Assembly (NCBI GenBank): GCA_025451725.1
Contig: JANWJX010000026.1
Coordinates: 1-34,368 of the forward strand
Length of the DNA: 34,368 nucleotides
Direction: 5' to 3'
DNA from: Allostellaceae bacterium
GTDB taxonomy: Bacteria; Pseudomonadota; Alphaproteobacteria; ATCC43930; CGMCC-115725
Under the pieces are notes generated by a model. The model ran no database searches, was not told the DNA's origin, and saw nothing but the letters and a program-made list of their open reading frames with translations. Of this stretch, positions 3 to 26,541 are shown in pieces. Every line of letters begins with the position of its first letter. Position 1 is the first letter of the stretch. Both the position numbers and the translations under genes were made by a program.

Positions 3-110
3 CTCGCGAAGCTCGCGGCGGCCGGACGGTTCATCTCGGCCGCGCTCGGCCGCGAGCCCACTTCCAAGGTGGCGCGGGCGCTCGCGGCGAAAAAGCTTAC
101 GGAAAAATAA
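3..110 (+). CDS. C-terminal fragment of an unidentified protein
   Basis: An open frame enters from the left edge and ends at a TAA at 108-110. The readable tail is 35 residues, rich in Ala, Lys and Arg, and ends KKLTEK. I do not recognise the family. It would overlap the 3' end of the convergent hydrolase gene by 14 bp, in keeping with other convergent ends in this window. It may be a chance open frame, because GC-rich DNA gives many; only sequence further left could settle this. Confidence 0.35.
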   Translation, partial: LAKLAAAGRFISAALGREPTSKVARALAAKKLTEK

Positions 111-879
111 CGCCGCGTTCGTTGCTGACGACGAACTTGTCCTGCCGCGTCAGGAAATCGTCGGTGACGGCGGCGCATGCTTCGGGCCGTTCGACATCAA
201 GCGCATGGGCCGCGTCGTAAACCATCACGACGTGGCAGTCGGGCAGCAATTCGCGATAGTGCCGACCCATCGCGGTCGGGATCAGCGAGTCCTCGGTCCC
301 GAGCAGCACCAGCACCGGTACCTTGCACTCCTTCATCCGCGCTTCCATGTCGGCGTCGCGGTCCGGCCCGATGATGCGCATGGCGAAGCCGATGCTTTTT
401 CTCGCCAGCTCTGGGTTGGGCGGCGGCATCGGCGGCAGTCGCTCGGGATGCGCGAACAACATCGCACGGAACTGGGCCGGGTCGGTCGGCGGCCGTGTAT
501 TGGGCGGGCGGATCGCGGCGGGCGCGAACAGCACCGCGGCTGAGACTTTCTCCGGATTGAGGATCGCGGTCCACAGCGCGAGTTTGCCGCCGAACGAAAT
601 CCCGGTGACGCAGAATTTGTCGATGGCGAGCGCGGCGATGGCCTTGCCCATCGTGCCGGCCAGTTCCGCCATCGAGTTGGTGCGCTCGTTCACCGGCGAT
701 TCGCCGAAGCCCGGACATTCGAAGGCGACGACGCGGCGCTTCTCCGCGAGCAGTTCGTGCATCTTGTTGAGTTGCAGCCCGCCGCCGCCGTGGAACCACA
801 CCAGCGGCTCGCCTTTGCCGGCTTCGAGGTAGCGGATGCGAAAGCCGTCCGCCTCGACGAATTTTTCCTGAAATGACAT
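97..879 (-). CDS. alpha/beta hydrolase
   Basis: A 260-residue alpha/beta-hydrolase-fold protein of the single-domain type that includes C-C and ester hydrolases of aromatic catabolism. Visible elements are the oxyanion-hole stretch HGGGG (30-34), the nucleophile elbow GISFG with Ser95, a late acid Asp197 in LGTEDS, and His225 in AAHALD; together these form a complete Ser-Asp-His triad. There is no signal peptide, so it should be cytosolic. It is the last gene of a minus-strand run: its ATG lies 6 bp after the stop of the LLM monooxygenase-like gene, which itself follows a molybdenum hydroxylase subunit. Context suggests it hydrolyses a product of the two upstream oxidoreductases. The substrate cannot be read from sequence; thioesterase, amide hydrolase and haloperoxidase-like activities remain possible. 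Confidence 0.85.
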   Translation of the reverse strand: MSFQEKFVEADGFRIRYLEAGKGEPLVWFHGGGGLQLNKMHELLAEKRRVVAFECPGFGESPVNERTNSMAELAGTMGKAIAALAIDKFCVTGISFGGKLALWTAILNPEKVSAAVLFAPAAIRPPNTRPPTDPAQFRAMLFAHPERLPPMPPPNPELARKSIGFAMRIIGPDRDADMEARMKECKVPVLVLLGTEDSLIPTAMGRHYRELLPDCHVVMVYDAAHALDVERPEACAAVTDDFLTRQDKFVVSNERGVIFP

Positions 880-885
880 TTGGGC

Positions 886-1977
886 TTATTCCATCTCGTG
901 AAGGCGCGGCAGCATCTTGGCGCCGAAAATCTCGATGGCGCGGCGCGCCTTGTCGTCCTCGGGATGCATGAAGATCAGGTCGAGAATTCCGGCGCCGATA
1001 TCGTCGCGGATGCGCTTGATCTGCTTCATCACCGTCTCGGGCGAGCCGAGCAGAATCTGGCCGTTCTCGACCGCGTCCCTGATCGCGCCGGGGCGGCCGA
1101 CGCGGTTGCGCTGCGCCTCGAAGTCGCGGCCGTAGTAGGACGTGCCGGCGACGGCCTGTTCCAGCGCGGGATTGGAAATCGAAAAGCGCCGCTGCGGCGG
1201 CATGTTCGCCATGTCGGCCTGCGCCTGCTCGTCGCTGTCGGCGACATGGATGGCGCAGCGATAGATCACGTCGTCCGCCGTCGGTTTCCATCCCGCCGCC
1301 TCGGCGTGAGTGCGATAGTGCGCCGCCGCCTTGGTCGCGAGCGGCAGCGTCGTCACCGCGAAGCCGAGCCCGACATGATTCTTCGCCGCGAACTCGCCGG
1401 ATTCGGGGCTGGAGCCCGACATGTAGATCGGCGGATGCGGTTTCTGCACCGGGCGCGGCCATACCGAGATGGCGCGGAATTCATAGTGCCTTCCCTGCCA
1501 GCCGAAGGGCTGCGGCTCGGTCCATGCCATGCGCAGCAAGTGCAATCCCTCCTGGAAGCGCGAACGCGATTCCTCGGGATTGACGTTGTAGGTAACGTAT
1601 TCGTTGGGCGTGCCGCGCATCAAGCCGGCGACCACGCGCCCGCCGGTGATGGTGTCGAGCATCGCGAATTCCTCGGCGACGCGCACCGGGTTGAGCATCG
1701 GCAGGGTCGGGCCGAGCACCGCGATCTTCGCCTTCTTCACCACCTGCGTCAGCGCGCCCGCCAGCAGCATCGGGTTCGGCGTCAGCGAGAACGGCGAGAA
1801 ATGATGCTCGGCGACCGTGACCCAGTCGAAGCCGATCTCGTCGGCGAGGCGGAACCGGTCGAGCGCGGTGTTGAAGGAATGGGCCGCCGATTCCTGCGAA
1901 TAGACGTCGGCCGGCACCGGCCAGCCGGGAGAGGCGTTGCCGTGATAGGCAACGGGCGAGAACAGAGCTGCTTTCAT
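886..1977 (-). CDS. LLM class flavin-dependent oxidoreductase (luciferase-like monooxygenase)
   Basis: A 363-residue member of the bacterial luciferase-like superfamily. These are TIM-barrel enzymes that use reduced FMN or F420, usually to hydroxylate or cleave a small organic substrate. The N-terminal strand and helix (MKAALFSP, then SFNTALDRFRLADEIGFDWVTVAEHHF) are typical, as are the LNPVRVAEEFAMLDTITGGRV segment and the late GSPETVMKQIKRIRDDIG segment. Length is normal for the group. The ATG lies 2 bp after the stop of the upstream molybdopterin subunit gene, so the two are almost certainly cotranscribed. Alkanal monooxygenase-like, F420-dependent and ring-opening activities cannot be told apart. 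No dedicated flavin reductase gene is in the window, so a generic reductase must supply reduced flavin if FMNH2 is used. Confidence 0.85.
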   Translation of the reverse strand: MKAALFSPVAYHGNASPGWPVPADVYSQESAAHSFNTALDRFRLADEIGFDWVTVAEHHFSPFSLTPNPMLLAGALTQVVKKAKIAVLGPTLPMLNPVRVAEEFAMLDTITGGRVVAGLMRGTPNEYVTYNVNPEESRSRFQEGLHLLRMAWTEPQPFGWQGRHYEFRAISVWPRPVQKPHPPIYMSGSSPESGEFAAKNHVGLGFAVTTLPLATKAAAHYRTHAEAAGWKPTADDVIYRCAIHVADSDEQAQADMANMPPQRRFSISNPALEQAVAGTSYYGRDFEAQRNRVGRPGAIRDAVENGQILLGSPETVMKQIKRIRDDIGAGILDLIFMHPEDDKARRAIEIFGAKMLPRLHEME

Positions 1978-1979
1978 GA

Positions 1980-4325
1980 TTACTCCGCTGCTTGGCGCGC
2001 GTTTTGGATCGCCTGCCAGACCCGATGCGGGGTCGCCGGCATGTCGATATGGGTAATGCCGTAGACCGACAGCGCATCGACGACCGCATTCATCACCGCG
2101 GGCAGCGAGCCGGAACAGCCCGCCTCGCCGCAGCCTTTGACGCCGAGCAAATTGCTTTTCGCCGGCACCGGGTGGCTCGCGAATTTGAAGCTCGGCACGT
2201 CCGAGGCGCGCGGCATCGCGTAATCCATGAACGAACCGGTGATGAGCTGGCCGTCCTTGTCGTAGCGCACGCCTTCCATCAGCGCCTGGCCGATGCCCTG
2301 CGTCACGCCGCCATGCACCTGGCCCTCGACCATCAGCGGATTCACGATCACGCCGAAATCGTCGACCATGGTGTATTTCGCGACCTGGACCACGCCGGTC
2401 TCGGGATCGATCTCGACCTCGCAGACATGACAGCCGTTGGGAAAGGCCGAGGGCGGGCTGTCCACCACCATCGAGACATCGAGCGAGGTCGGCACGCCTT
2501 CCGGCAGGTTCGGTTTCGCCCGCAGCCGATCGGCGATCTCAAGTAGACCGATCGAGCGGTCGGTGCCGGCGATGGTGAAGTGCGCATTGCCGAACTCGAT
2601 GTCGGCCGCCGCAGCCTCGAGGAAATGGCCCGCCAACTGCTTGCCGTTCTCGATCACCTTGTCGCTCGCGAGCGCGATGGCCGTGCCGCTCGCCATGATC
2701 GAGCGCGAACCGCCGGTGCCGCCGCCCGCGATCAACTGATCGCTGTCGCCCTGCACCAGGCGGATGCGCTCGAACGGAATGCCGAGCCGCTGCACCAGCA
2801 CTTGCGCGAAGGGCGCGGCATGGCCCTGGCCGTAATCGAGCGTGCCGGTGACGATAGTGACATCGCCGTTCGCCTCGAAGCGGATGCCGCCCATTTCCTT
2901 GCCGGGTGGCGCCGTGACTTCGAGATAATGGCCGATGCCGCGGCCGCGCAACTTGCCGCGTTTGTCGCTCGCCGCCTTGCGCGCGGCATAGCCGTTCCAG
3001 TCCGCGGCCTCGAGCCCGTCGCGCAGCACGCTCGGAAAGTCGCCGCTGTCATAAGTGAGATCGGATGGCGCCTTATAAGGGATCGCGTGCGGCTGGATAT
3101 GGTTGCGCCGCCGCAACTCGAGCGGATCGCGCTTCATCTCGCGCGCCGCCTGTTCGATCAGGCGCTCCATATAATAATTGCCTTCCGGCCGGCCTGCGCC
3201 GCGATAGGCGCCTACCGGCGTCGAATTGGTCAGCACGCACTTGGTGTTCACTTCGACCAGCGGCGTGCGATAGACGCCGACGATGTTCTTCACCGCGTTG
3301 ACGGTGACTTGCAGCGGCAGGCCCTGGAACGCGCCGTAATTTCCGTAACCGGTGAGGCGCACGGCGAGAATCATTCCGTCCTTGTCGAACGCGGCTTCCG
3401 CCGTCACTTCATGGTCGCGGCCGTGATTGTCGGAGACGAACGAACCTGAACGCTCGTCGGTCCATTTCACCGGGCGGTTCAGCACCTTGGTGGCATAGAG
3501 CGCGCAGACATATTCCGGATAGGCGACGATCTTCATGCCGAACGAGCCGCCGACATTGCCGGTGATGACGCGCACCTGCGCCGGCGGCACTTTGAGGATG
3601 TCGTTGGCGATGCTCTGTTTGAGGCCGAACACGCCCTGCGAGCAGACCGTGACCGTGTAGCGCCCGTCCTTGAAATCGGCGATGCAGGAACGCGGCTCCA
3701 TCGGATTGACCACGATGCGCTGGCTGATGGGCTTGAGCTTGGTGATATGCGTCGCCTTGGCGAAGGCTTCATTCACCGCCTCGGTATTGCCGAAATGATA
3801 ATCGAGCGTGACGTTCCCCGGCGCCGCTTCGTGAATGGTCGGCGCATCGCGCGCCAGCGCCTCGGCAATCGTGGTAATGGCCGGCAACGGCTCGACTTCG
3901 AGCACGACGGCTTCCGCTGCGTCCTTGCCTTGCGCCACCGTCTCGGCGATGACGACAGCATAGGCTTCGCCGACATAGCGCACTTTGCCGGTGGCGAGGG
4001 CGGGGCGCGGTTTCGCCTTCATGTTGGAACCGTCGCGGGCCTTCACCATCATCGGCGGATTGGACATGCCGATGCCGCCTGCGGCGAGATCGTCCCAGGT
4101 GTAGACACCGAGCACGCCGGGCATCGCCTGCGCCGCCGTCACGTCGATCGACTTGATAACGCCGTGCGCATAAGGGCTGCGCACCATCACGGCATAGGCT
4201 TGGCCCTTGACGTTGACGTCGTCGGTGTAGCTGCCGGCGCCCTTCAGCAGCGTCGGGTCCTCGGTCCGCGACACCGGCTGGCCGATGCCGAATTTCAACA
4301 AGGCGAGATCGTTGTTACTGTCCAT
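1980..4325 (-). CDS. xanthine dehydrogenase family, molybdopterin-binding large subunit (CoxL-like)
   Basis: A 781-residue large subunit of the molybdenum hydroxylase family, whose members insert a water-derived oxygen into N-heterocycles or aldehydes (CO for true CO dehydrogenase). The N-terminal part holds the aldehyde oxidase a/b-hammerhead region. The Moco-binding part contains GGSFGMK, the AYRGAGRPE active-site loop and, near the C-terminus, GVKGCGEAG with the presumed catalytic Glu734. The loop reads AYRGAGR rather than the AYxCSFR of genuine CO dehydrogenase, so this is a form II/BMS-type enzyme and probably not a CO oxidiser. No FAD or 2Fe-2S subunit is adjacent. It heads a run with the LLM oxidoreductase and hydrolase genes and is divergent from a paralogue 219 bp away. 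Confidence 0.88.
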   Translation of the reverse strand: MDSNNDLALLKFGIGQPVSRTEDPTLLKGAGSYTDDVNVKGQAYAVMVRSPYAHGVIKSIDVTAAQAMPGVLGVYTWDDLAAGGIGMSNPPMMVKARDGSNMKAKPRPALATGKVRYVGEAYAVVIAETVAQGKDAAEAVVLEVEPLPAITTIAEALARDAPTIHEAAPGNVTLDYHFGNTEAVNEAFAKATHITKLKPISQRIVVNPMEPRSCIADFKDGRYTVTVCSQGVFGLKQSIANDILKVPPAQVRVITGNVGGSFGMKIVAYPEYVCALYATKVLNRPVKWTDERSGSFVSDNHGRDHEVTAEAAFDKDGMILAVRLTGYGNYGAFQGLPLQVTVNAVKNIVGVYRTPLVEVNTKCVLTNSTPVGAYRGAGRPEGNYYMERLIEQAAREMKRDPLELRRRNHIQPHAIPYKAPSDLTYDSGDFPSVLRDGLEAADWNGYAARKAASDKRGKLRGRGIGHYLEVTAPPGKEMGGIRFEANGDVTIVTGTLDYGQGHAAPFAQVLVQRLGIPFERIRLVQGDSDQLIAGGGTGGSRSIMASGTAIALASDKVIENGKQLAGHFLEAAAADIEFGNAHFTIAGTDRSIGLLEIADRLRAKPNLPEGVPTSLDVSMVVDSPPSAFPNGCHVCEVEIDPETGVVQVAKYTMVDDFGVIVNPLMVEGQVHGGVTQGIGQALMEGVRYDKDGQLITGSFMDYAMPRASDVPSFKFASHPVPAKSNLLGVKGCGEAGCSGSLPAVMNAVVDALSVYGITHIDMPATPHRVWQAIQNARQAAE

Positions 4326-4474
4326 CGCTCACATGCCGATTATTGGAATTTCCGTATCTGGGAATGTTTTAGACCAAATCCACTCGGTCAGTCTTGTTTC
4401 CTCATTGACCCTCGTTTTCGCACAGCGCAGGGCATCGCTGAGTTTATTCGGATATAGCGAGTCCCGCCATTTTT

Positions 4475-4504
4475 TTGACGTTGCAACGGTCGTTTCCGCT
4501 AGCA
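4475..4504 (+). promoter_or_regulatory. possible sigma-70 type promoter for the plus-strand molybdopterin subunit gene
   Basis: In the relatively AT-rich 219-bp divergent spacer, TTGACG (4475-4480) and CTAGCA (4499-4504) are separated by 18 bp. This fits the loose alphaproteobacterial housekeeping promoter. It would start transcription near 4511, leaving a leader of about 34 nt that carries AGGGAG eight bases before the ATG at 4545. I found no equally good candidate facing the minus-strand gene. Confidence 0.35.
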
Positions 4505-4544
4505 TGACCGCAACAGCGCAATCCGCCTTCAGGGAGACGAAAAA

Positions 4545-6866
4545 ATGGCTGGTTTTGGCATCGGGCAACCCATCCGCCGCGTCGAGGACAAACGGTTCCT
4601 CACCGGTCACGGCACCTACATCGAGGACATCAATCTGCCGCGCCAGGCGCATGCGGTGAATCTGCTGTCGCCGCACGCTCACGCCAAGATCAATCGCATC
4701 GACAAGAGCAAGGCCGAGAAGGCGCCCGGCGTGCTCTGCATCCTCACCGGCGCCGATGCCGGTGCCGAGAAGGTCGGGCCGATGTTCCCCCTGATGCCCG
4801 AGGATATGGGCGGCCCGCCGGGCTTCCGCGCGCCGCGCTTCCTGCTCGCCACCGGCAAGGTGCGCTATGTCGGCGAGCGCGTCGCCTTCGTCGTCGCCGA
4901 GACGCAGGAGCAGGCGCGCGACGCCGCCGAGCTGATCGAGGTCGATTACACGCCGCTGCCCGCCGTGACCTCGATGGAAGACGCGATCAAGGACGGCGCT
5001 CCGAAGATTTGGGACGAATGCCCGACCGGCAACGTCGTGTTCCCGATCATGATGGGCAACAAGGAGGCGACCGACGCCGCCTTCGCCAAGGCCGCGCACA
5101 AAGTGACGCTGCGCCTGGTCAACAATCGCATCTCCGCCAACTCGATGGAGACGCGCGGCTATATCGGCGACTACAGCGCCGCCGACGACTTCTACACGCT
5201 CTATACCGCGACGCAGAATCCGCATGGCGCGCGCGGCACTCTTGCCGGCCAGGTGTTCCATGTGCCGGAAAGCCAGATGCGCGTCATCGCCAAGGATGTC
5301 GGCGGCGGCTTCGGCATGAAAGGCGACGTCTACCCCGAAGAGGCGCTGGTGCTGTGGGCGTCGAAAAAGATCGCCCGCCCGGTGAAGTGGATCTCGTCGC
5401 GCACCGAAGGCTTGCTCAACGACACGCATGGACGCGACCAGATCGTCACCGGCGAGATCGCGCTCGACAAGGACGGCACGATCCTCGGGCTGCGCGCGCA
5501 CAGCCTGACCAATCTCGGCGGCAACGTCTCGGGCGCGGGCGTGATCCCGTCGCTGTCGGCATTGCAGATGGCGCCGCAGGTCTATCGCACGCCGACCGTG
5601 TTCTTCACCGGCCAGGCGGTGTTCACCAACACCGCGCCGATGGGCCCGTATCGCGGCGCGGGCCGGCCGGAAGCGACGTACTTCATGGAGCGCATGATCG
5701 AGCACGCCGCCCGCGTTACCGGCATCGACCGCGTCGAGATCCGCCGCCGCAATTTCATCCCGGCGAGCGCGATGCCTTTCACGACGGCGACCGGCGTCAC
5801 TTATGACAGCGGCGATTTCGTCGCGACCATGGATCAGACCATCGCCAAGGCCGACTGGAACGGCTACGCCGCGCGCAAGGCGGCAAGCGAGAAAAAGGGC
5901 AAACTCCGCGGCCGCGGCCTCATCTATTACGTCGAGACCTGCGCCATCTTCAACGACCGCATGGAATTGCGTTTCGACCCCAGCGGTTCGGTGACGATCG
6001 TCGCCGGCACGTTCAGTCACGGCCAGGGGCACGCCACCACTTTCGCGCAGATGGCGTCGGAATGGCTTGGCGTGCCGTTCGAAAGTATCCGGTTCGTCCA
6101 GGGCGACACCAACCAGGTGTCGTTCGGCCGCGGCACCTATGGCTCGCGTACCTCGGCGGTGGGCGGCGGCGCGCTGAAGGCGGCGAGCGCGAACCTCATT
6201 GAAAAGGCGAAAAGCCTCGCCTCGCATCTGATGGAAGCGTCGCCCGCCGACATCCAGTTCGAAAACGGCCGCTTCACCATTGTCGGCACCGACAAGTCGA
6301 TGGCGCTGGTCGATGTCGCAAAGGCCGCTTACGCGCCGATGATGCTGCCGCCCGGCTTCGGCCTCGGCCTCGAAGCGAGCGGCGCCGCCGACGGCGTGCC
6401 GAATTTCCCCAATGGCTGTCACATCTGCGAGCTCGAGGTCGATCCCGACACCGGCACGGTGACCATCGATCGCTATACGGTCGTGGACGACGTCGGTATG
6501 GTGATCAATCCGCTGATCGTCGAGGGCCAGATCGTCGGCGGCCTGGCGCAGGGCTTTGGCCAGGCGCTGCTCGAGAACATCGAGTACGACGCGGAATCGG
6601 GTCAGCTCCTGTCCGGCAGCTTCATGGACTACACCATGCCGCGCGCCGACGATCAGCCCGACTTCTCCTGCGGCTTTAACAATGTGCCGTGCAAGACCAA
6701 CGCGCTGGGCATCAAGGGCGCGGGCGAGGCGGGCTCGGTCGGCGCGCCGCCGGCGGTGATCAACGCCCTCGTCGACGCGCTCGGTCCGCTCGGGGTCAAG
6801 ACCATCGACATGCCGGCGACGCCGAAGCGGGTATGGGAGACCATTCAGGCCGCCCGCGGGGCCTAG
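4545..6866 (+). CDS. xanthine dehydrogenase family, molybdopterin-binding large subunit (paralogue)
   Basis: A 773-residue paralogue of the minus-strand neighbour, colinear over its whole length. Shared landmarks are the FGIGQP.RR.ED start, the GYxGDY/CIADF region, VGGGFGMK, PYRGAGRPE and GIKGAGEAG with presumed catalytic Glu728. It is a Moco (usually MCD form) hydroxylase subunit expected to act with 2Fe-2S and FAD subunits that are not in this window. The loop is again of form II type, so CO oxidation is unlikely. The start is well supported: AGGGAG sits 8 bp before the ATG, and the first residues align with those of the paralogue. It stands alone, followed by a strong hairpin and then phaZ. 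Substrate unknown; N-heteroaromatic hydroxylation is a guess. Confidence 0.88.
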   Translation: MAGFGIGQPIRRVEDKRFLTGHGTYIEDINLPRQAHAVNLLSPHAHAKINRIDKSKAEKAPGVLCILTGADAGAEKVGPMFPLMPEDMGGPPGFRAPRFLLATGKVRYVGERVAFVVAETQEQARDAAELIEVDYTPLPAVTSMEDAIKDGAPKIWDECPTGNVVFPIMMGNKEATDAAFAKAAHKVTLRLVNNRISANSMETRGYIGDYSAADDFYTLYTATQNPHGARGTLAGQVFHVPESQMRVIAKDVGGGFGMKGDVYPEEALVLWASKKIARPVKWISSRTEGLLNDTHGRDQIVTGEIALDKDGTILGLRAHSLTNLGGNVSGAGVIPSLSALQMAPQVYRTPTVFFTGQAVFTNTAPMGPYRGAGRPEATYFMERMIEHAARVTGIDRVEIRRRNFIPASAMPFTTATGVTYDSGDFVATMDQTIAKADWNGYAARKAASEKKGKLRGRGLIYYVETCAIFNDRMELRFDPSGSVTIVAGTFSHGQGHATTFAQMASEWLGVPFESIRFVQGDTNQVSFGRGTYGSRTSAVGGGALKAASANLIEKAKSLASHLMEASPADIQFENGRFTIVGTDKSMALVDVAKAAYAPMMLPPGFGLGLEASGAADGVPNFPNGCHICELEVDPDTGTVTIDRYTVVDDVGMVINPLIVEGQIVGGLAQGFGQALLENIEYDAESGQLLSGSFMDYTMPRADDQPDFSCGFNNVPCKTNALGIKGAGEAGSVGAPPAVINALVDALGPLGVKTIDMPATPKRVWETIQAARGA

Positions 6867-11911: not shown

Positions 11912-12283
11912 ATGAGCGAGGCGCGCGAGCTGCTGCTGGAAAATCCCAAGACCGGCGCGGTGCGTCCGTTCCGCGACGGGTTCGACTGGATTCTGTTCCT
12001 GTTCTCGGGCGTGCTCGGCCTGCCGCTGTTTCTCCAAGGCCTGCCGCTGTGGGGCACAATCTTTGTCGCGCTGTGGATCGTCGATCTGGCGCTGGTCTGG
12101 GTGTTGCCGAGGCAATGGAGCCTCGGCGGCCAGGCGGTGATGGCGGCGATTTTTTTCGCGTTGCAGCTCTGGCTTGGCTTTCGCGGCCGCGAGCTGGTGC
12201 TGCGCGCCTATGTTAAACGCGGCTGGCGGCGGCGCGAGCGCGCGGCGCCTAGGCCACGGCAAGGTCGAAAGCGGCGGACATAA
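11912..12283 (+). CDS. small integral membrane protein, DUF2628-like layout
   Basis: A 123-residue protein with a short polar N-terminus (LLENPKTGAVRPFRDGFDW), then about three hydrophobic segments (roughly 27-50, 50-68 and 72-92), then a very basic tail (RAYVKRGWRRRERAAPRPRQ...). The arrangement of a GF-W motif before the first membrane segment and LRAYVKRGW after the last resembles DUF2628-type proteins, but I cannot assign it firmly. It starts 7 bp after the aminopeptidase stop and is probably cotranscribed with it. Its last 35 bp overlap the 3' end of the convergent yejF-like gene. Function unknown. Confidence 0.7.
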   Translation: MSEARELLLENPKTGAVRPFRDGFDWILFLFSGVLGLPLFLQGLPLWGTIFVALWIVDLALVWVLPRQWSLGGQAVMAAIFFALQLWLGFRGRELVLRAYVKRGWRRRERAAPRPRQGRKRRT

Positions 12284-13859
12284 GCGCTTTGGTGTAGGGC
12301 TCTTTCGGCGCACCGAAGATTTGTTTCGCCGGTCCCGCTTCGACGACGCGCCCGTCCTTCATCACGATGAGATCGTGCGCCAGCGCGCGCACCACGCGCA
12401 GATCGTGGCTAATAAAGACATAAGCGAGGCCGTGGCGCTGTTGCAAATCGCGCAACAGATCGACGATCTGCGCCTGGATCGAGACGTCAAGCGCCGAGGT
12501 CGGCTCATCGAGCATCAGTATGTGCGGCCGCAGCACCAGCGCGCGGGCGATGGCGACGCGCTGGCGCTGTCCGCCGGAAAATTCATGCGGATAGCGGTCG
12601 GCGTCGTCGGGGTCGAGCCCGACCTCCGTCAGCACGTCATGGATCAAGCCGCGTCGCTCGGCCGGCGTGGTGCCGATGCGGTGGACTTTCAGTCCTTCCT
12701 CGACGATCTGCGCGATCGACATGCGCGGCGAAAGGCTGGCGAACGGGTCCTGGAAGACGATCTGCAATTCGCGCCGCAGCGGACGCATGTCGCGCTCGGC
12801 GATGCCGTCGATCTTGCGCCCGGCATAAACGATCGGCCCGTCGCTTTTGACCAGCCGCAACAGCGCCAGGGCCAGCGTGGTCTTGCCCGAGCCGGACTCG
12901 CCGACGACGCCAAGCGTTTCGCCCTGGCGGATCGCGGCGTCGACGCCGTCCACCGCCTTGATGTAACCGATCGTGCGGCGAAAGACTCCGGCGCGGATCG
13001 GAAACCAGACTTTGAGGTCCTTGGTCTCCATCGTCACCGGCGGCGGCGGTTCGATCGAGACCGGCTCGCCTTTCGGCTCCGAGGCGAGGAGGCGCTTGGT
13101 GTAGGGGTGCTGCGGCCGCGCGAAAATCTCGGCGACGGTGCCGCGTTCGACGATCTCGCCTTGCGTCATCACCATGACGCGGTCGGCGATTTTCCGCACG
13201 ATGGTCAGGTCGTGCGTGATCATCAGCATCGCCATGCCGAAACGCGCTTGCAAATCCTTGAGGAGCTTCAGGAGCTGCGCCTGGATGGTGACGTCGAGCG
13301 CGGTGGTCGGCTCGTCCGCGATGAACAGCGCTGGCTCGTTGGCGAGCGCCATCGCGATCATCACGCGCTGGCGCTGCCCGCCCGAGAGTTGATGCGGGTA
13401 GGCGTTGAGGCGTTTTTCCGCCTCGCTCAGCCCAACCAGCTTCAGCAATTCGACCGCGCGCGCCCGCGCCGCGTCGCGGCTCATCTTCTTGTGCAGGAAC
13501 AGCGTCTCGGTGATCTGCTTCAGGATGGTGTGGAGCGGGTTGAGCGAGGTCATCGGCTCTTGGAACACCATTGCGATGCGGTTGCCGCGCACTTCGCGCA
13601 AGACCTTTGGCGGCCCGCCGACCAGTTCGTGTCCCTCGAACTTGATGGAACTGCCGGGTCCGTGGCTCGCGGCGGGATAAGGCAGAAGCTGCAACACCGA
13701 CAGCGCCGTCACCGACTTGCCCGAGCCTGACTCGCCGACGAGCGCGACGATCTCGCCGGGCGCGATGTCAAAGGAGACGCCGCGAACGGCCTCGACGCGC
13801 CGGTCGCCCGACTGGAAGGCGACGGAGAGATTCTCGATGGCGAGCAGCTTCTCAGCCAT
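12249..13859 (-). CDS. yejF: ABC transporter ATPase with two fused nucleotide-binding domains (YejF type)
   Basis: A 536-residue cytosolic ATPase made of two oligopeptide-type NBDs in tandem, so one chain supplies both ATP sites of the importer. The first domain has Walker A GESGSGKS (42-49) and signature LSGGQ (158-162), followed by ADEPTTALD. The second has GESGSGKT (320-327), FSGGQ (427-431) and LDEPTSALD. Fused NBDs plus the gene order mark it as YejF, which powers peptide (and, in E. coli, microcin C) uptake, rather than a separate DppD/DppF pair. Its ATG overlaps the end of the permease gene by 8 bp. Its 3' end overlaps the small membrane protein gene on the other strand. Confidence 0.92.
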   Translation of the reverse strand: MAEKLLAIENLSVAFQSGDRRVEAVRGVSFDIAPGEIVALVGESGSGKSVTALSVLQLLPYPAASHGPGSSIKFEGHELVGGPPKVLREVRGNRIAMVFQEPMTSLNPLHTILKQITETLFLHKKMSRDAARARAVELLKLVGLSEAEKRLNAYPHQLSGGQRQRVMIAMALANEPALFIADEPTTALDVTIQAQLLKLLKDLQARFGMAMLMITHDLTIVRKIADRVMVMTQGEIVERGTVAEIFARPQHPYTKRLLASEPKGEPVSIEPPPPVTMETKDLKVWFPIRAGVFRRTIGYIKAVDGVDAAIRQGETLGVVGESGSGKTTLALALLRLVKSDGPIVYAGRKIDGIAERDMRPLRRELQIVFQDPFASLSPRMSIAQIVEEGLKVHRIGTTPAERRGLIHDVLTEVGLDPDDADRYPHEFSGGQRQRVAIARALVLRPHILMLDEPTSALDVSIQAQIVDLLRDLQQRHGLAYVFISHDLRVVRALAHDLIVMKDGRVVEAGPAKQIFGAPKEPYTKALMSAAFDLAVA

Positions 13860-14886
13860 TCATCTTCCGCGGGTCGAACGCGTCGCGCACCGCTTCGCCG
13901 ACGAAAATCAAAAGGCTCAGCATCACGGCGAGGGTGAAGAACGCCGTCAGGCCGAGCCAGGGCGCCTGGAGGTTGGCCTTGCCCTCGGACAACAGCTCGC
14001 CGAGGGACGGCGAGCCGGGCGGCAGGCCGAAGCCGAGGAAATCGAGCGAGGTGAGCGTCGTGATCGATCCGTTGAGGATGAACGGCAGGAAGGTCAGCGT
14101 CGCCACCATCGCATTGGGCAGGACGTGGCGCCAGATGATCACCGGGTTCGACACGCCAAGCGCTTTCGCCGCGCGGACATAGTCGAAATTGCGCGCGCGC
14201 AGGAACTCGGCGCGCACCAGATCGACCAGCGACATCCACGAGAACAGCAGCATGATCCCGAGCAGCCACCAGAAATCCGGCTGGATGATGCTCGACAGGA
14301 TGATGAGCAGATACAGCACCGGCAGGCCCGACCAGATTTCGAGAAAGCGCTGAAACAATAAGTCGGTGAGGCCGCCGTAATAGCCCTGCACCGCGCCGGC
14401 CGCGACGCCGACGATCGAGCTCAGCACCGTCAGCACCAGCCCGAACAGCACCGAAATGCGGAAGCCGTAGATCAGCCGCGCCAGCACGTCCCGGCCCTGA
14501 TCGTCGGTGCCGAGCAGGTTGGCGCCGCTGGGCGGCGACGGCGCGGGCGAGGGCAGGTGGAAATTGATGGTGCGATAGTCGTAGGGAATCGGCGGCCACA
14601 CGATCCAACCCTTGGCGTCGATGCGCTTCGCCACCTCACGATCGCGATAATCGGCGTCGATCGGCAGATCACCGCCGAAATCGGCCTCGGTGTAGTTGCG
14701 CAGGATCGGCAGATAGAGCTGCCCGTCATATTCGACCAGCAGCGGCCGGTCATTGGCGATCAGCTCGGCGACCAGGCTGAGCAGGAACAGCACCAGGAAA
14801 ACCCACATCGACCAATAGCCGCGGCGGTTGGCGCGGAAATTGGCGAGGCGCCGCCGCGTCAGCGGGCTGAGCGGACGTAGGATCAT
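13852..14886 (-). CDS. yejE: peptide ABC transporter permease (YejE type)
   Basis: A 344-residue inner-membrane permease. It starts with the [21 protein letters not shown] segment and first membrane span seen in YejE/DppC proteins. A long periplasmic stretch follows ([28 protein letters not shown] and beyond). The core domain holds [11 protein letters not shown]-like [19 protein letters not shown] and the EAA loop [22 protein letters not shown], where the ATPase docks. It pairs with the YejB permease, whose stop overlaps this start by 4 bp, and overlaps the ATPase gene by 8 bp, indicating translational coupling along the operon. Confidence 0.92.
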
Positions 14887-15956
14887 GTTTCGCGCGTCGC
14901 GAAATCGATACGCGGATCGACCAACATATAGGTCAGGTCGCTGATCAGCTTCATCACGAGGCCGACCAGCGTGTAAATGTACAGCGTCGCGAACATGATC
15001 GGATAGTCGCGGGCCAGCGCCGCTTGGAAGCCGAGCAGGCCGAGACCATCGAGGGAGAAAATGACCTCGACCAGCAGCGCGCCGGTGAACAGGATGCCAA
15101 CGAACGCCGACGGAAAGCCCGCGATCACCAGCAGCATCGCGTTGCGGAAGACGTGACCATAGAGCACGCGCCGCTCCGACAGGCCTTTGGCGCGCGCGGT
15201 TACGACATATTGCTTGTTAATCTCCTCCATGAAGGAGTTCTTGGTCAGCATAGTGAGGCTGGCGAAGCCGCCGATCACCAGCGCCAGCACCGGCAAGGCG
15301 ATGTGCCAGAAATAGTCGACGATTTTGGCGGCGAGGCCGAGTTCCGCCCAGTCGTCCGACACTAGGCCGCGCAGCGGGAACCATTGGAAATAGCTGCCGC
15401 CGGCGAACAGCACGATCAGCAGGATCGCGAACAGGAAACCGGGAATGGCGTAGCCGACGATGACGACGGCGCTGGTCCACACATCGAAATTGCTGCCGTC
15501 GCGAACGGCCTTGGCGATGCCGAGCGGAATCGAAATGAAATAGACGATGAACGTGGTCCACAAGCCGAGCGAGATCGACACCGGCAATTTATCTTCGATC
15601 AGCTTGATGACCGAGCGGTCGCGGAAAAAACTGGTGCCGAAATCGAACGACGCATATTGCCGGATCATGATCCAGAACCGCTCGAGCGGCGGCTTGTCGA
15701 AACCGTAGAGCTTGTTGAGCCGCGCCAGCAGCGCGGGGTCGATGCCGCGCGAGGCGCGGCTGACGCCGGCGGTCTTCGCGGTCTCCCCGCCGCCGGCCGT
15801 CACGCGGCTCGTGACGTCGCCGCGGCCTTTCAACTGCGCGATCATCTGGTCGACCGGCCCGCCCGGCGCCGCCTGGATGATAAAAAAATTGACCACGATG
15901 ATCGCGAACAGGGTCGGGATCATCAGCAGGATGCGGCGCAGCGCGTAGGCGAGCAT
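14883..15956 (-). CDS. yejB: peptide ABC transporter permease (YejB type)
   Basis: A 357-residue inner-membrane permease of the DppB/OppB/YejB group. The first membrane span is followed by a [12 protein letters not shown] motif typical of the group, then an extended hydrophilic insert (about 40-90) that YejB-like proteins carry. The core includes [28 protein letters not shown]. The EAA loop is [24 protein letters not shown]. It lies 4 bp downstream of the binding-protein gene and overlaps yejE by 4 bp. Confidence 0.92.
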
Positions 15957-15960
15957 CGGA

Positions 15961-17772
15961 TCAGTGCAGCTTGGCTTTGTTCGCCTGCAACGTCTTGTCG
16001 AGCGCCGGGTCGATCCACCAGGTGTCGAGCGCCAGTGCGTAGGGCGGGTTGATCTTGGGCCGGCCGAACTTGTCCCAATAGGCGACGCGGAACACGTCGA
16101 TATGCCAGTTCGGAATGACGTAGTAGCTGTGCAGCAGCACCCGGTCGAGCGCGTGCACGCGCGTCAACAGCGCCTTGCGGTCGGGCGAGCCGATAATAAG
16201 GTCGACCAGTTTGTCGACCGCCTTGCTCCTCACGCCCATGACATTGTTGCCGCCCGGCTCGTCGGCGGCCGCCGAAGTCCAATAGCCGCGCTGTTCATTG
16301 CCGGGCGTCAGCGATTCCGGAATCCCGACCACCACCATGTCGAAATCGTAATTGTTGAGCCGGTTCTCGTATTGCGACGGGTCGATGGTGCGCAGATTCA
16401 TCGCGATGCCGATGCGGCGCAGATTGTCCGCGAACGGCAACAGGATGCGCTCGAACTCGGCCTGGACGTTGAGGAACTCGAAGGCGAATTGCTCGCCCTT
16501 GTCGTTGACCAGCTTGCCGCCCTTGATAGTCCAACCCGCCTCTTTCAGCAGGCCAAGCGCGGCGCGAAGATTGGCGCGGATGTCGCCGGTGCCGTCGGTC
16601 TTTGGCGCCTGGTACGGCTTGGTGAAGACCGTCGGCGGAATGTCGGCCTTGAGCGGTTCGAGGACTTTTAGCTCGTCCGGGCTCGGCAGGCCCGACGACG
16701 CGAGATCGGAATTGGAGAAATAGCTCTCGGTGCGCGCATAGGCGCCGTAGAACAAATTCTTATTCGCCCATTCGAAATCGAACAGATATCCGAGTGCTTC
16801 GCGCACCCGCGGGTCCTTGAAGATCGGCCGTCGCGTGTTGAAGGCGAAAGCCTGCATGCCTTCCGGCACTTGGTTCTTGATCCGCTGCATCTTGAACAAG
16901 CCCGCCGACAGCGCCGGGCTGGTGTAGCCGGTTGCCCAGTTTTTCGCGACGTTCTCCTGACGGATGTCGTATTGACCGGCTTTGAAGGCCTCGAGCGCGA
17001 CTGACGCGTCCCGATAATAGTCGTAGCGGATGGTGCCGAAATTAAAGCGGCCCTTTCGCACCGGCAGATCCTTTGCCCAGTAGTCCGGCACCAGCCGATA
17101 GGTGATCGAGCGGCCGGCGTCGAACGACGCGATCTTGTAGGGGCCGCTGCCGAGCGGCTGATCGAGCGTGGTCTTTTCGAAATCGCGCCCGGCCCAGTAT
17201 TTCTTCGACAGCACCGGCAGTTCGCCGAGAATGATGGGCAGTTCGCGGTTCTCCGCTGAGCGCAGCGTGAACTTGACGCCATGTTCGCCGATCTGCTCGG
17301 CCTTCAGCACGTCGGCGTAATAAAGATGATATTGCGGCGTGCCCTTGGCCTTGAGCGTGTCGAACGTCCAGATCACGTCGGCGGGCGTCATCTGGCTGCC
17401 GTCGTGAAACCGCGCCTCGGGCCGCAGCTCGAACGTCACCGAGAGATGGTCCGGCGCGACCGACACGCTTTGCGCCACCAGCCCATATTGCGAATCCGGT
17501 TCGTCCGACGACGCCACCATCAGCGTGTCGAACAGGTAACCGAGCCCTTCCGCTTTTACGCCCTTCAAAGTGAACGGGTTGAACGTGTCGTAGGTGCCGA
17601 TGCTGTTGAACTTGACCGCGCCGCCTTTGGGCGCGTCGGGATTGACGTAATCGAAATGCGTAAAGCCCGGCTTGTATTTGAGGTCGCCGTAGAGCGCGAT
17701 CCCGCCGGTCGGCTCGGCATGGGCGTTGCCGATAATCAACAGAACGGCGATGGCGGACAGGGCAACGCGCAT
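15961..17772 (-). CDS. yejA: periplasmic peptide-binding protein (YejA type)
   Basis: About 603 residues from the ATG at 17772: a family 5 extracellular solute-binding protein that captures peptides for the YejBEF importer. A signal peptide [19 protein letters not shown] precedes the mature start [11 protein letters not shown]; there is no lipobox Cys. The mature chain has [39 protein letters not shown] and [20 protein letters not shown], all typical of YejA. A GTG at 17793 would add seven residues before the signal peptide. The ATG is preferred because GAGGTG precedes it and a promoter-like sequence lies just beyond. First gene of the four-gene importer unit. Confidence 0.92.
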
Positions 17773-17797
17773 GGGCACCTCAGGATGGAACACGCCA

Positions 17798-24179: not shown

Positions 24180-24797
24180 TCAAGCGGGCGTGAGCTCGAT
24201 CCGCAGGCGCCGCGGCTCGAGCTTCGGCGGCGCGATCCGCAGCTTGAGGTCCGCCGCGAACAATTGACAGAGATGCGCGTGAACGCCGCGCGCGGTCAGA
24301 TTCTCAACCGACAGATCGGGTCGCAAGCCGGCCTGCGCCTCGGGCGTCAGGCGGACCGTGTCGCCGTCGGCTTCGATCGCCATGCCGAGGCCGTGGCCGC
24401 GGACCGACACGGTGCCGCCGCGCGGCAGCGCTTCCGCCGCCAGCACCAGTAGCACACAGGCGAGGCGCTGCCACGCGTGCGGCCGCGTCGCTTCTTCCGG
24501 TGGCCAATCGCAATGCACGTTGCCGGCCTCGAAAAGCTTCTGCGCCATGTCGCGCCCGATCGCCGGCGCGGCGCCGTCGCCCGGCAGCGTGCCATAGGCG
24601 AAGCGATAGAATTGCAACCGCCGCGACACGGTGCGCGCGCTGGTCCCGACCAGCCGCACCGCGTCGGCGACGAAATCGGGGTCCTCTTCGCTCATCAACT
24701 CGACGCCGTTAACCACGGCCGAGATCGGCCCCGCCAATTCGTGACACATCCGCGCGCTCAACATTTCCATCACGCGCATGTCGATAATGACGCTCAT
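24180..24797 (-). CDS. chpT: ChpT-type histidine phosphotransferase
   Basis: A 205-residue protein of the alphaproteobacterial ChpT family, which relays phosphate from the hybrid kinase CckA to CtrA and CpdR in cell-cycle control. The DHp-like helix reads LSARMCHELAGPISAVVNGVELM, with phospho-accepting His19. The C-terminal part resembles a degenerate histidine-kinase ATPase domain that does not bind ATP in characterised members. The ATG overlaps the stop of mobA (ATGA), so it is translationally coupled to a cofactor gene with no obvious link. Annotation as ChpT is strong from the His motif and length; whether CtrA signalling operates here cannot be seen. Confidence 0.88.
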   Translation of the reverse strand: MSVIIDMRVMEMLSARMCHELAGPISAVVNGVELMSEEDPDFVADAVRLVGTSARTVSRRLQFYRFAYGTLPGDGAAPAIGRDMAQKLFEAGNVHCDWPPEEATRPHAWQRLACVLLVLAAEALPRGGTVSVRGHGLGMAIEADGDTVRLTPEAQAGLRPDLSVENLTARGVHAHLCQLFAADLKLRIAPPKLEPRRLRIELTPA

Positions 24798-25459
24798 GCT
24801 CGCCCCGAACTCCCCGCGCCGCCATTATCGACCGAGGGCCGCATTGCAAGCAACGTCTCCGCTTTGGCGAAATCTTCCGGCGTGTTGATGTTGAAAAACG
24901 GATCGAACGGCACTGCGTCGAATGCGACAGTCGCGATCCGGTAACGCGCGCTCCAGCCGTCGACCTTGCGTATGCCCTCGTCGCGCAGCGCGCGGCGCAG
25001 TTCATCGCGCAGGCGCACCGGCCACAGCGCGAACACCGGGTGGGTTCGACCGCCTGATCGCGCACAGGCGATGTCGGCACCATCGCGCTCCCGCGCCGCA
25101 GCCAATCGAGCGACGAAATCGGGGGGAAAGAACGGCGCGTCGCACGGGAAGCTGGCGAGCCAGGCGATGCCGGCGGCGTCTGCCCAGTCCATGCCGGCCA
25201 GAATGCCTGCCAGCGGTCCCACGAAACCCGGCACAGTGTCCGGCAAAATCGGCAGGCCGAAGGCACCAAGCGGGCCGGGATCGCCGTTGGCGCTGAGCGC
25301 CAGCGTTGCCACCTGCGGCCGCGCCAGCGAAATAGCGTGTTCCAACAAAGACTTGCCACCCAGTAGGCGCAGCGCCTTGTCGCCGCCGAGCCGTCTCGCC
25401 TGGCCGCCAGCCAGCACGATACCGGCAATCCGGCCGCTCAAGTCGTTATGCTCTACCAT
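24794..25459 (-). CDS. mobA: molybdenum cofactor guanylyltransferase
   Basis: A 221-residue nucleotidyltransferase that adds GMP to molybdopterin cofactor, giving the MGD form used by DMSO-reductase-family enzymes. The N-terminal nucleotide motif is [17 protein letters not shown] (14-30). The middle contains [19 protein letters not shown] and [10 protein letters not shown], and the late [14 protein letters not shown] is typical of MobA. The [12 protein letters not shown] form suits MobA better than the cytidylyltransferase MocA. It diverges from moaA across 89 bp and overlaps chpT by 4 bp. It would not by itself supply the MCD cofactor usually used by the xanthine-dehydrogenase-type subunits at the left of the window. 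Confidence 0.9.
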
Positions 25460-25548: not shown

Positions 25549-26541
25549 ATGATCGATCCGTTCGGCCGTTCCATCTCCTATTTGCGCGTGTCGGTGACCG
25601 ACCGGTGCGATTTCCGCTGCGTTTATTGCATGTCGGAAGACATGGCGTTTCTGCCGAAGGCGGAAATCCTGACACTGGAGGAATTGGACCGGCTGTCGGG
25701 CGCGTTCATCCGCCTCGGCGTGAAAAAGCTGCGCCTCACCGGCGGCGAGCCGCTGGTGCGCAAGAACATCATGCATTTGTTCCGCTCGCTCGGCCGCCAT
25801 TTGCAGACCGGCGATCTCGAGGAACTGACGCTGACCACCAACGGCAGTCAGCTCGCGAAATATGCGCGAGACCTGAAAGAGGCCGGGGTCAAGCGCATCA
25901 ACGTCTCGCTGGACACGCTCGATGCCCAGAAATTCGCGGCGATCACGCGCTGGGGCCGGTTCGATCAGGTGATGGACGGCATCCGCGCGGCGAAGTCCGC
26001 CGGCTTGCAGGTCAAGCTCAACGCCGTCGCGCTCAAGGGCGTCAACGACGGCGAGTTCGACAAACTGATCGGCTGGTGCGGCGAGGAAGGGTTCGACCTG
26101 ACCTTGATCGAGGTCATGCCGCTCGGCGAGGTCGGCTCCGGTACGCGCGTCGACCAATATCTGCCGCTGTCGATGGTGCGGGCGGATTTGCGCAAGCGCT
26201 GGACGCTCGACGAAAGCGATTACAAGACCGGCGGACCGGCGCGCTACTACACCGTGCGCGAGACCGGACAGCGGCTCGGCCTCATCACGCCGATGACGCA
26301 TAATTTCTGCGAAAGCTGCAATCGCGTGCGCCTCACCTGCACCGGCACGCTTTATATGTGCCTCGGCCAAGAGGATGCCGCCGATCTGCGCGCGCCGCTG
26401 CGCGCCTCGGAAAGCGACGCGCCGGTCGAGGCCGCGATCCGCGCCGCCATCGACCGCAAGCCCAAAGGCCACGATTTCATCATCGACCGCCGCCACGACC
26501 GGCCGGCCGTGGCGCGCCACATGAGTGTGACGGGCGGCTGA
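25549..26541 (+). CDS. moaA: GTP 3',8-cyclase (molybdenum cofactor biosynthesis)
   Basis: A 330-residue radical SAM enzyme that, with MoaC, turns GTP into cyclic pyranopterin monophosphate, the first step of Moco synthesis. The SAM-binding 4Fe-4S site is CDFRCVYC (Cys20, Cys24, Cys27). The second cluster, which binds GTP, uses Cys254, Cys257 and Cys271 (C-x2-C-x13-C). [11 protein letters not shown] and the C-terminal Gly-Gly tail needed for activity are present. The DRCDFRC start context and family length support the ATG. It diverges from mobA, so two steps of the cofactor pathway flank one control region. Confidence 0.95.

Follow-up and report, generated by a model that had tools for sequence, protein, structure and literature searches.

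Two lone CoxL-type catalytic subunits in an Allostellaceae genome and their probable shared CoxS-CoxM partner module

The stretch of DNA analyzed here (the window, 34,368 nucleotides) is the whole of contig C26 from the draft genome of an Allostellaceae bacterium (G000; 1.73 Mb, 61% complete) of the Alphaproteobacteria. A preliminary description made from its sequence had recognized, near its start, a three-gene unit of a molybdenum hydroxylase, a luciferase-like monooxygenase (LLM) and an alpha/beta hydrolase, and had suggested an undescribed catabolic module with an N-heterocycle as a possible substrate. Three intact minus-strand open reading frames (ORFs) do lie there, separated by 2 bp at 1978-1979 (MOA/LLM) and 6 bp at 880-885 (LLM/hydrolase), and Pfam bore out all three protein families. 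The main interest of the window was found outside this trio: it contains two representatives of a large clade of partnerless catalytic subunits, and evidence gathered across whole genomes suggests that these share a single partner module. The relevant features are as follows.

97..879, minus strand: alpha/beta hydrolase, 260 aa, third gene of the trio; PF00561 (Abhydrolase_1).
886..1977, minus strand: LLM-class flavin monooxygenase, 363 aa, second gene of the trio; PF00296 (Bac_luciferase), E 3.7e-52.
1980..4325, minus strand: MOA, a lone CoxL-type molybdopterin-binding large subunit, 781 aa; Pfam MoCoBD_1, MoCoBD_2 and Ald_Xan_dh_C.
4326..4544, no strand: MOA-MOB intergenic region, 219 bp by coordinates, in which both promoters would be expected.
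4545..6866, plus strand: MOB, a second lone CoxL-type large subunit, 773 aa, divergent from MOA, assigned by Pfam and sequence.

Comparison with a congener (G001) by the NG86 method gave dN/dS values of 0.088/0.779 for MOA, 0.176/0.912 for the LLM and 0.227/0.879 for the hydrolase, and the same comparison gave 0.064/0.710 for MOB. All four genes are under purifying selection within the genus and, on the strength of these values, the trio ORFs are genuine genes and not chance frames. Co-transcription of the trio is likely. The 2-bp MOA/LLM gap is not kept in the relatives: MOA ends at 947 and the LLM starts at 1045 in G003 (L039), and the corresponding positions are 9570 and 9692 in G001 (L040). 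MOA and MOB stand in opposite orientation across the intergenic region, and a sigma-70 scan of 4300-4600 found no promoter.

MOA carries the loop AYRGAGRPE at residues 373-381, DYGQGHA at 497-503 and KGCGEAG at 730-736, and we take the glutamate of the last motif to be the catalytic base; the MOB loop reads PYRGAGRPE. The hydrolase has a Ser95-Asp197-His225 triad with Ser95 within GISFGG, and D197 and H225 are invariant across a 9-sequence alignment. Its best NCBIfam matches include lactonases, all below cut-off, and it did not qualify as a PcaD-type enol-lactonase (TIGR02427, 83.5 bits against a cut-off of 255.85). The LLM, which passes PF00296, fell below every NCBIfam subfamily cut-off.

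A search of contig C26 for the FAD subunit CoxM (PF00941) and the [2Fe-2S] subunit CoxS (PF01799) returned zero matches, and MOA and MOB are catalytic large subunits only. In related enzymes, subunits of the CoxS and CoxM type lead electrons off the molybdenum site. Because neither is encoded on the contig, MOA alone is unlikely to form a complete hydroxylase; the earlier term "molybdenum hydroxylase" was right about the family and not about a complete enzyme.

The CSFR-type loop of form I CO dehydrogenase carries the Cu-binding Cys, and quinoline 2-oxidoreductase and 6-hydroxypseudooxynicotine dehydrogenase are three-subunit enzymes. MOA aligns over nearly the whole large subunit of form I Mo-Cu CO dehydrogenase (8uem, 1n5w, 1ffu), with the CoxL of 8uem as its nearest solved relative (E 4e-151), but it has AYRGAGR in place of the AYxCSFR loop. 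Quinoline 2-oxidoreductase (1t3q, E 3e-112) and 6-hydroxypseudooxynicotine dehydrogenase (7dqx, E 2e-110) belong to the same superfamily and score below CoxL. Unlike a complete three-subunit molybdenum hydroxylase operon, the MOA locus has no adjoining genes for FAD and [2Fe-2S] subunits.

The lack of partner genes extends well beyond the window. In a survey of MOA orthologues covering 80 named loci, 46 of them flanked by 5 kb or more on each side, a hidden Markov model built from the CoxM set of this study found no CoxM near an orthologue (0/80), and MOA orthologues almost always stand without partner subunits. We then use "orphan" for a CoxL-type gene without CoxM or CoxS within 8 kb; the label covers L069 (G000:C23), whose nearby CoxS adjoins xanthine dehydrogenase (XDH)-type genes. 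Orphans were counted in 16 genomes. Large subunits of XDH type, recognized by a PF02738 match weaker than about 1e-45 or by split matches to PF20256, were left out, and one set of eight genomes contributed four, its other members (G002, G003, G016 and G022) being too fragmented. Among the matches listed, there were 165 CoxL-type genes, of which 71 had CoxM and CoxS, 2 had CoxS only and 92 were orphans. G010, assembled in 10 contigs, had 15 orphans and one paired CoxL, as did G019, and 10 of the 22 CoxL-type genes of Reyranella soli were orphans (again among the matches listed). The pattern is present in long-contig isolates and in draft bins.

A CoxL tree was built from 127 rows (124 different) comprising 57 orphan rows (3 duplicates), 58 paired rows and 12 rows from form-II-like coxSLM clusters, whose CoxS-CoxM(-CoxG) part we call the hub; fragments shorter than 600 aa, e.g. 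L267, were dropped. The 12 hub CoxL all fell in one clade together with 55 of the 57 orphan rows; this clade has a support of 100 and contains none of the 58 paired CoxL. After the addition of 23 rows, among them one duplicate of L107, the same clade grew to 90 rows (78 of 80 orphan rows plus the 12 hub rows), still with zero paired rows. MOB lies within a 14-row clade made up entirely of orphans. AYRGAGRPE is found in 26/57 orphan rows and 12/12 hub rows. The molybdenum cofactor and Glu motifs are kept in most of these lone subunits, and variation is seen at the residue before YRGAGR (A or P) and in the DYGQGH/SHGQGH stretch, as expected if their substrates differ.

In comparison, the trio itself is real and narrow in range. 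A search with the LLM found a match at E 1e-60 or better in 23 of 99 genomes, with identities of 96% in G003 and 76% in G001. The order MOA-LLM-hydrolase was seen in three genomes, G000, G001 and G003, which all belong to the same genus as the window; G001 also retains a malate synthase, a PHB depolymerase and MOB, with HMGL-like and biotin carboxylase genes past the hydrolase. At L150, which is very close to the window's genome (84-92% identity), MOB and MOA are present and the locus stops inside MOA. Beyond the genus, including within the family, an LLM gene and a hydrolase gene are again paired but lack MOA beside them (e.g. L041, L043, L047-L054 and L058; the L041 hydrolase is without the Ser motif). 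Near MOA orthologues, an LLM and a hydrolase were both found at one of the 80 loci, L072, where the two show identities of about 30% and 26%, respectively, and lie 2-3 kb away on the opposite strand. Conservation in related genomes, which the preliminary description had proposed as the test of its module, is thus seen inside the genus and not outside it, and broad conservation of the trio as a pathway was rejected. In the papers searched, no description of the unit was found, and none joined LLM, hydrolase and molybdenum terms. Plasmid searches with the LLM and MOA gave only matches of less than 60% identity.

These results bear on the possibility that MOA, LLM and hydrolase form a dedicated route for N-heterocycle catabolism with MOA as a self-sufficient molybdenum hydroxylase. 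Tight spacing, a shared strand and purifying selection on all three genes within the genus would agree with such a route. It is very unlikely, however, given that no CoxS or CoxM is found on the contig, that the trio is confined to one genus while the range of MOA is far wider, and that the link to the quinoline and nicotine enzymes is one of superfamily similarity only, with CoxL scoring higher. Because MOA has the AYRGAGR loop and falls in the clade of orphan CoxL, an N-heterocycle substrate is without support.

We also considered a general pairing of LLMs with molybdenum subunits, which was rejected: an LLM lies within 3 kb of 3/41 orphan CoxL versus 3/71 paired or hub CoxL, and of 3/84 CoxL in MOA-orthologue loci, so that LLMs are not enriched near orphans. 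G010 has four lone CoxL with an LLM within that distance (L062, L228, L230 and L072), which is suggestive only; at L062 (9035-14314), the orphan CoxL is preceded, on its own strand, by an LLM and a gene with a metallo-beta-lactamase fold, a further arrangement of this type. Conserved neighbors of MOA were likewise rejected as a clue to the substrate, because they vary by lineage: MR_MLE enolase-like and NIPSNAP genes in Reyranella-type loci, FtsJ-like and Ppx/GppA-like genes in relatives of Bradyrhizobium, and SDR or MFS genes elsewhere. The MR_MLE and NIPSNAP genes lie directly upstream of the MOA orthologue at L074 (7880-9716) and 9 further loci.

A candidate partner for MOA and MOB is encoded on another contig of the same genome, where the presumed hub (G000:C70:10215-14612) has the order CoxG, CoxS, CoxL, CoxM.

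G000:C70 10215-11009, minus strand: CoxM of the presumed hub.
G000:C70 11033-13396, minus strand: CoxL of the presumed hub.
G000:C70 13396-13869, minus strand: CoxS of the presumed hub.
G000:C70 13992-14612, minus strand: CoxG of the presumed hub.

Seven genomes were found to have a solitary CoxS-CoxM cluster with no CoxL alongside, and five of the seven have a CoxG-like gene. In a tree of 75 CoxM, the 7 sequences from these solitary clusters group with the 12 from coxSLM clusters in a clade that has a support of 100 and excludes the other 56, and its starred branches require at least three changes to the solitary state. The case is strongest in G010, G019, G108 and G109, whose solitary CoxS-CoxM clusters lie on contigs of 72 kb to 1.85 Mb. 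Among the genes examined, these four genomes have 15, 15, 3 and 5 orphans, respectively, and none of the 38 is in the hub-CoxL clade; without a hub-type CoxL among them, the retained CoxS-CoxM has only the lone CoxL of its own clade to serve. The solitary hub genes are under purifying selection between G010 and G019, with dN/dS values of 0.152/0.700 for CoxM and 0.056/0.489 for CoxS. A class-wide survey of 289 genomes found both hub CoxM and MOA-type CoxL in 145, hub CoxM only in 1, CoxL only in 1 and neither in 142; of the 145, 115 had more MOA-type CoxL than hub CoxM. The two exceptions are G323 (CoxL at C63:405-2759) and G225; the hub of G323 may be cut off, since its CoxL sits near the contig start. 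In addition, the solitary CoxM-CoxS-CoxG clusters at L047 (3461-10932, G010) and L048 (2246-10989, G019) each have a relative of the window's LLM-hydrolase pair about 3.5-5 kb away.

Two other explanations for the orphans can be weighed against these data. Each orphan CoxL might act without CoxS and CoxM, using another electron acceptor or performing non-redox chemistry, as could be supposed of genes that are many, conserved and free of neighboring partner genes. We consider this unlikely, because the orphans fall in the single CoxL clade that holds the hub CoxL and because it leaves unexplained why CoxS-CoxM is kept without a resident CoxL in G010, G019, G108 and G109. Alternatively, a solitary CoxS-CoxM might serve in trans one relocated CoxL, with unrelated partners or roles for the other orphans. 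The movement of one subunit gene is arguably simpler than many-to-one sharing, but orphans belonging to the hub-CoxL clade number 0/15 in each of G010 and G019, 0/3 in G108 and 0/5 in G109, making this explanation a rather improbable one.

Taken together, the clade shared by orphan and hub CoxL, the CoxM clade, the solitary hubs and the co-occurrence of hub and CoxL lead us to read MOA and MOB, with fair confidence, as exchangeable catalytic "spokes" of a hub-and-spoke molybdenum hydroxylase. Several observations weigh against this reading. A CoxS was found near an MOA orthologue in 3 of the 80 loci, at 2.2 and 2.3 kb (both XDH-type) and at 9.2 kb. Bradyrhizobium, Afipia and Rhodopseudomonas have a second complete coxSLM besides the solitary hub and are therefore weaker cases. 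The class-wide survey scored 3 CoxL candidates per genome, and the co-occurrence that it revealed is partly trivial, since most hubs come with a CoxL of their own. The trees were made with FastTree and quick IQ-TREE without bootstrap, and they place one orphan (L248) inside a paired clade, another (L245, at a contig end) outside the orphan/hub clade and a third (L244, at a contig start) inside the hub-CoxL clade. A few orphans have altered motifs (KGSGQAG in 2 rows and VTRGPGFAE in 1). Finally, since G000 is 61% complete, a private partner of MOA may be encoded in its missing part.

In the hub-and-spoke model, one form-II-like pair of CoxS ([2Fe-2S]) and CoxM (FAD), usually with CoxG, would be encoded about once per genome and would dock in turn with the CoxL encoded next to it and with lone CoxL paralogues dispersed around the chromosome, each of which would set the substrate and sit beside its own downstream enzymes. 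For MOA and MOB, we infer from the clade evidence that the partner would be the CoxS-CoxM pair at G000:C70. MOA would oxidize its substrate with water-derived oxygen, and electrons would pass from MOA to CoxS and CoxM and then, perhaps via CoxG, to quinone. The LLM would next insert oxygen, perhaps by a Baeyer-Villiger reaction, after which the lactone or ester would be opened by the hydrolase. This last sequence of Baeyer-Villiger oxidation and lactone hydrolysis is a tentative guess by analogy, prompted by such a reading of SAR202 LLMs and by the below-cut-off lactonase matches of the hydrolase.

The available text on SAR202 Chloroflexota describes 152 LLM-type monooxygenases and 28 CO dehydrogenase/XDH/aldehyde-oxidase proteins in five single amplified genomes (Landry 2017, PMC5395668), an expansion interpreted there as serving oxidation of recalcitrant matter (PMC5395668). 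SAR202 belongs to a different phylum, and the same text reports no LLM-hydrolase-CoxL operon, orphan CoxL or shared subunits (PMC5395668). Several genomes of the window's family (G008, G017, G022 and G034) have over 70 first-look LLM candidates each, recalling the SAR202 expansion. Excerpts on sponge symbionts describe genomes rich in COG1529 genes, over half of which have an unknown substrate.

The closest known system is form II Cox, defined in the available text as coxSLM clusters with the AYRGAGR motif (PMC13203968, PMC13240472). MOA shares this loop (373-379) and MOB has PYRGAGR, and hub CoxL and orphans fall in one clade; the coxS-coxL-coxM order is found at the presumed hub but not at MOA or MOB, which both lie outside any coxSLM operon. 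According to the accessible portions of these papers, the role of form II Cox is unclear, with form-II-only isolates often failing to consume CO (PMC13203968), its activity is unresolved and lone form-I coxL genes likely stem from incomplete genomes (PMC13240472), and CoxG has been proposed to pass electrons to quinone (cited in PMC13240472). No description of a CoxS-CoxM pair shared by orphan CoxL was found in the literature searched, including the available text of the form II papers.

Elsewhere on the contig of MOA and MOB, a MobA-like NTP transferase (24794-25459, minus strand) and a MoaA-type gene (Mob_synth_C and Radical_SAM; 25549-26541, plus strand) were observed, as was an oligopeptide-type ABC transporter cluster (12249-17793, minus strand) consisting of a YejF-like fused double ATPase, two permeases and a family 5 solute-binding protein.

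On balance, we lean toward the view that the form II "CO dehydrogenase" of Alphaproteobacteria may be a platform, in which one CoxS-CoxM(-CoxG) module is common to up to 15 dispersed, exchangeable CoxL. If true, this would offer a testable answer to the question of the role of form II Cox and would account for the frequent lack of CO uptake in form-II-only organisms. A new oxidation could then be gained by acquiring or duplicating one catalytic gene, with no new electron-transfer chain. Lone coxL genes should in that case not be written off as assembly gaps, and counts of coxL would not equal counts of CO oxidizers.

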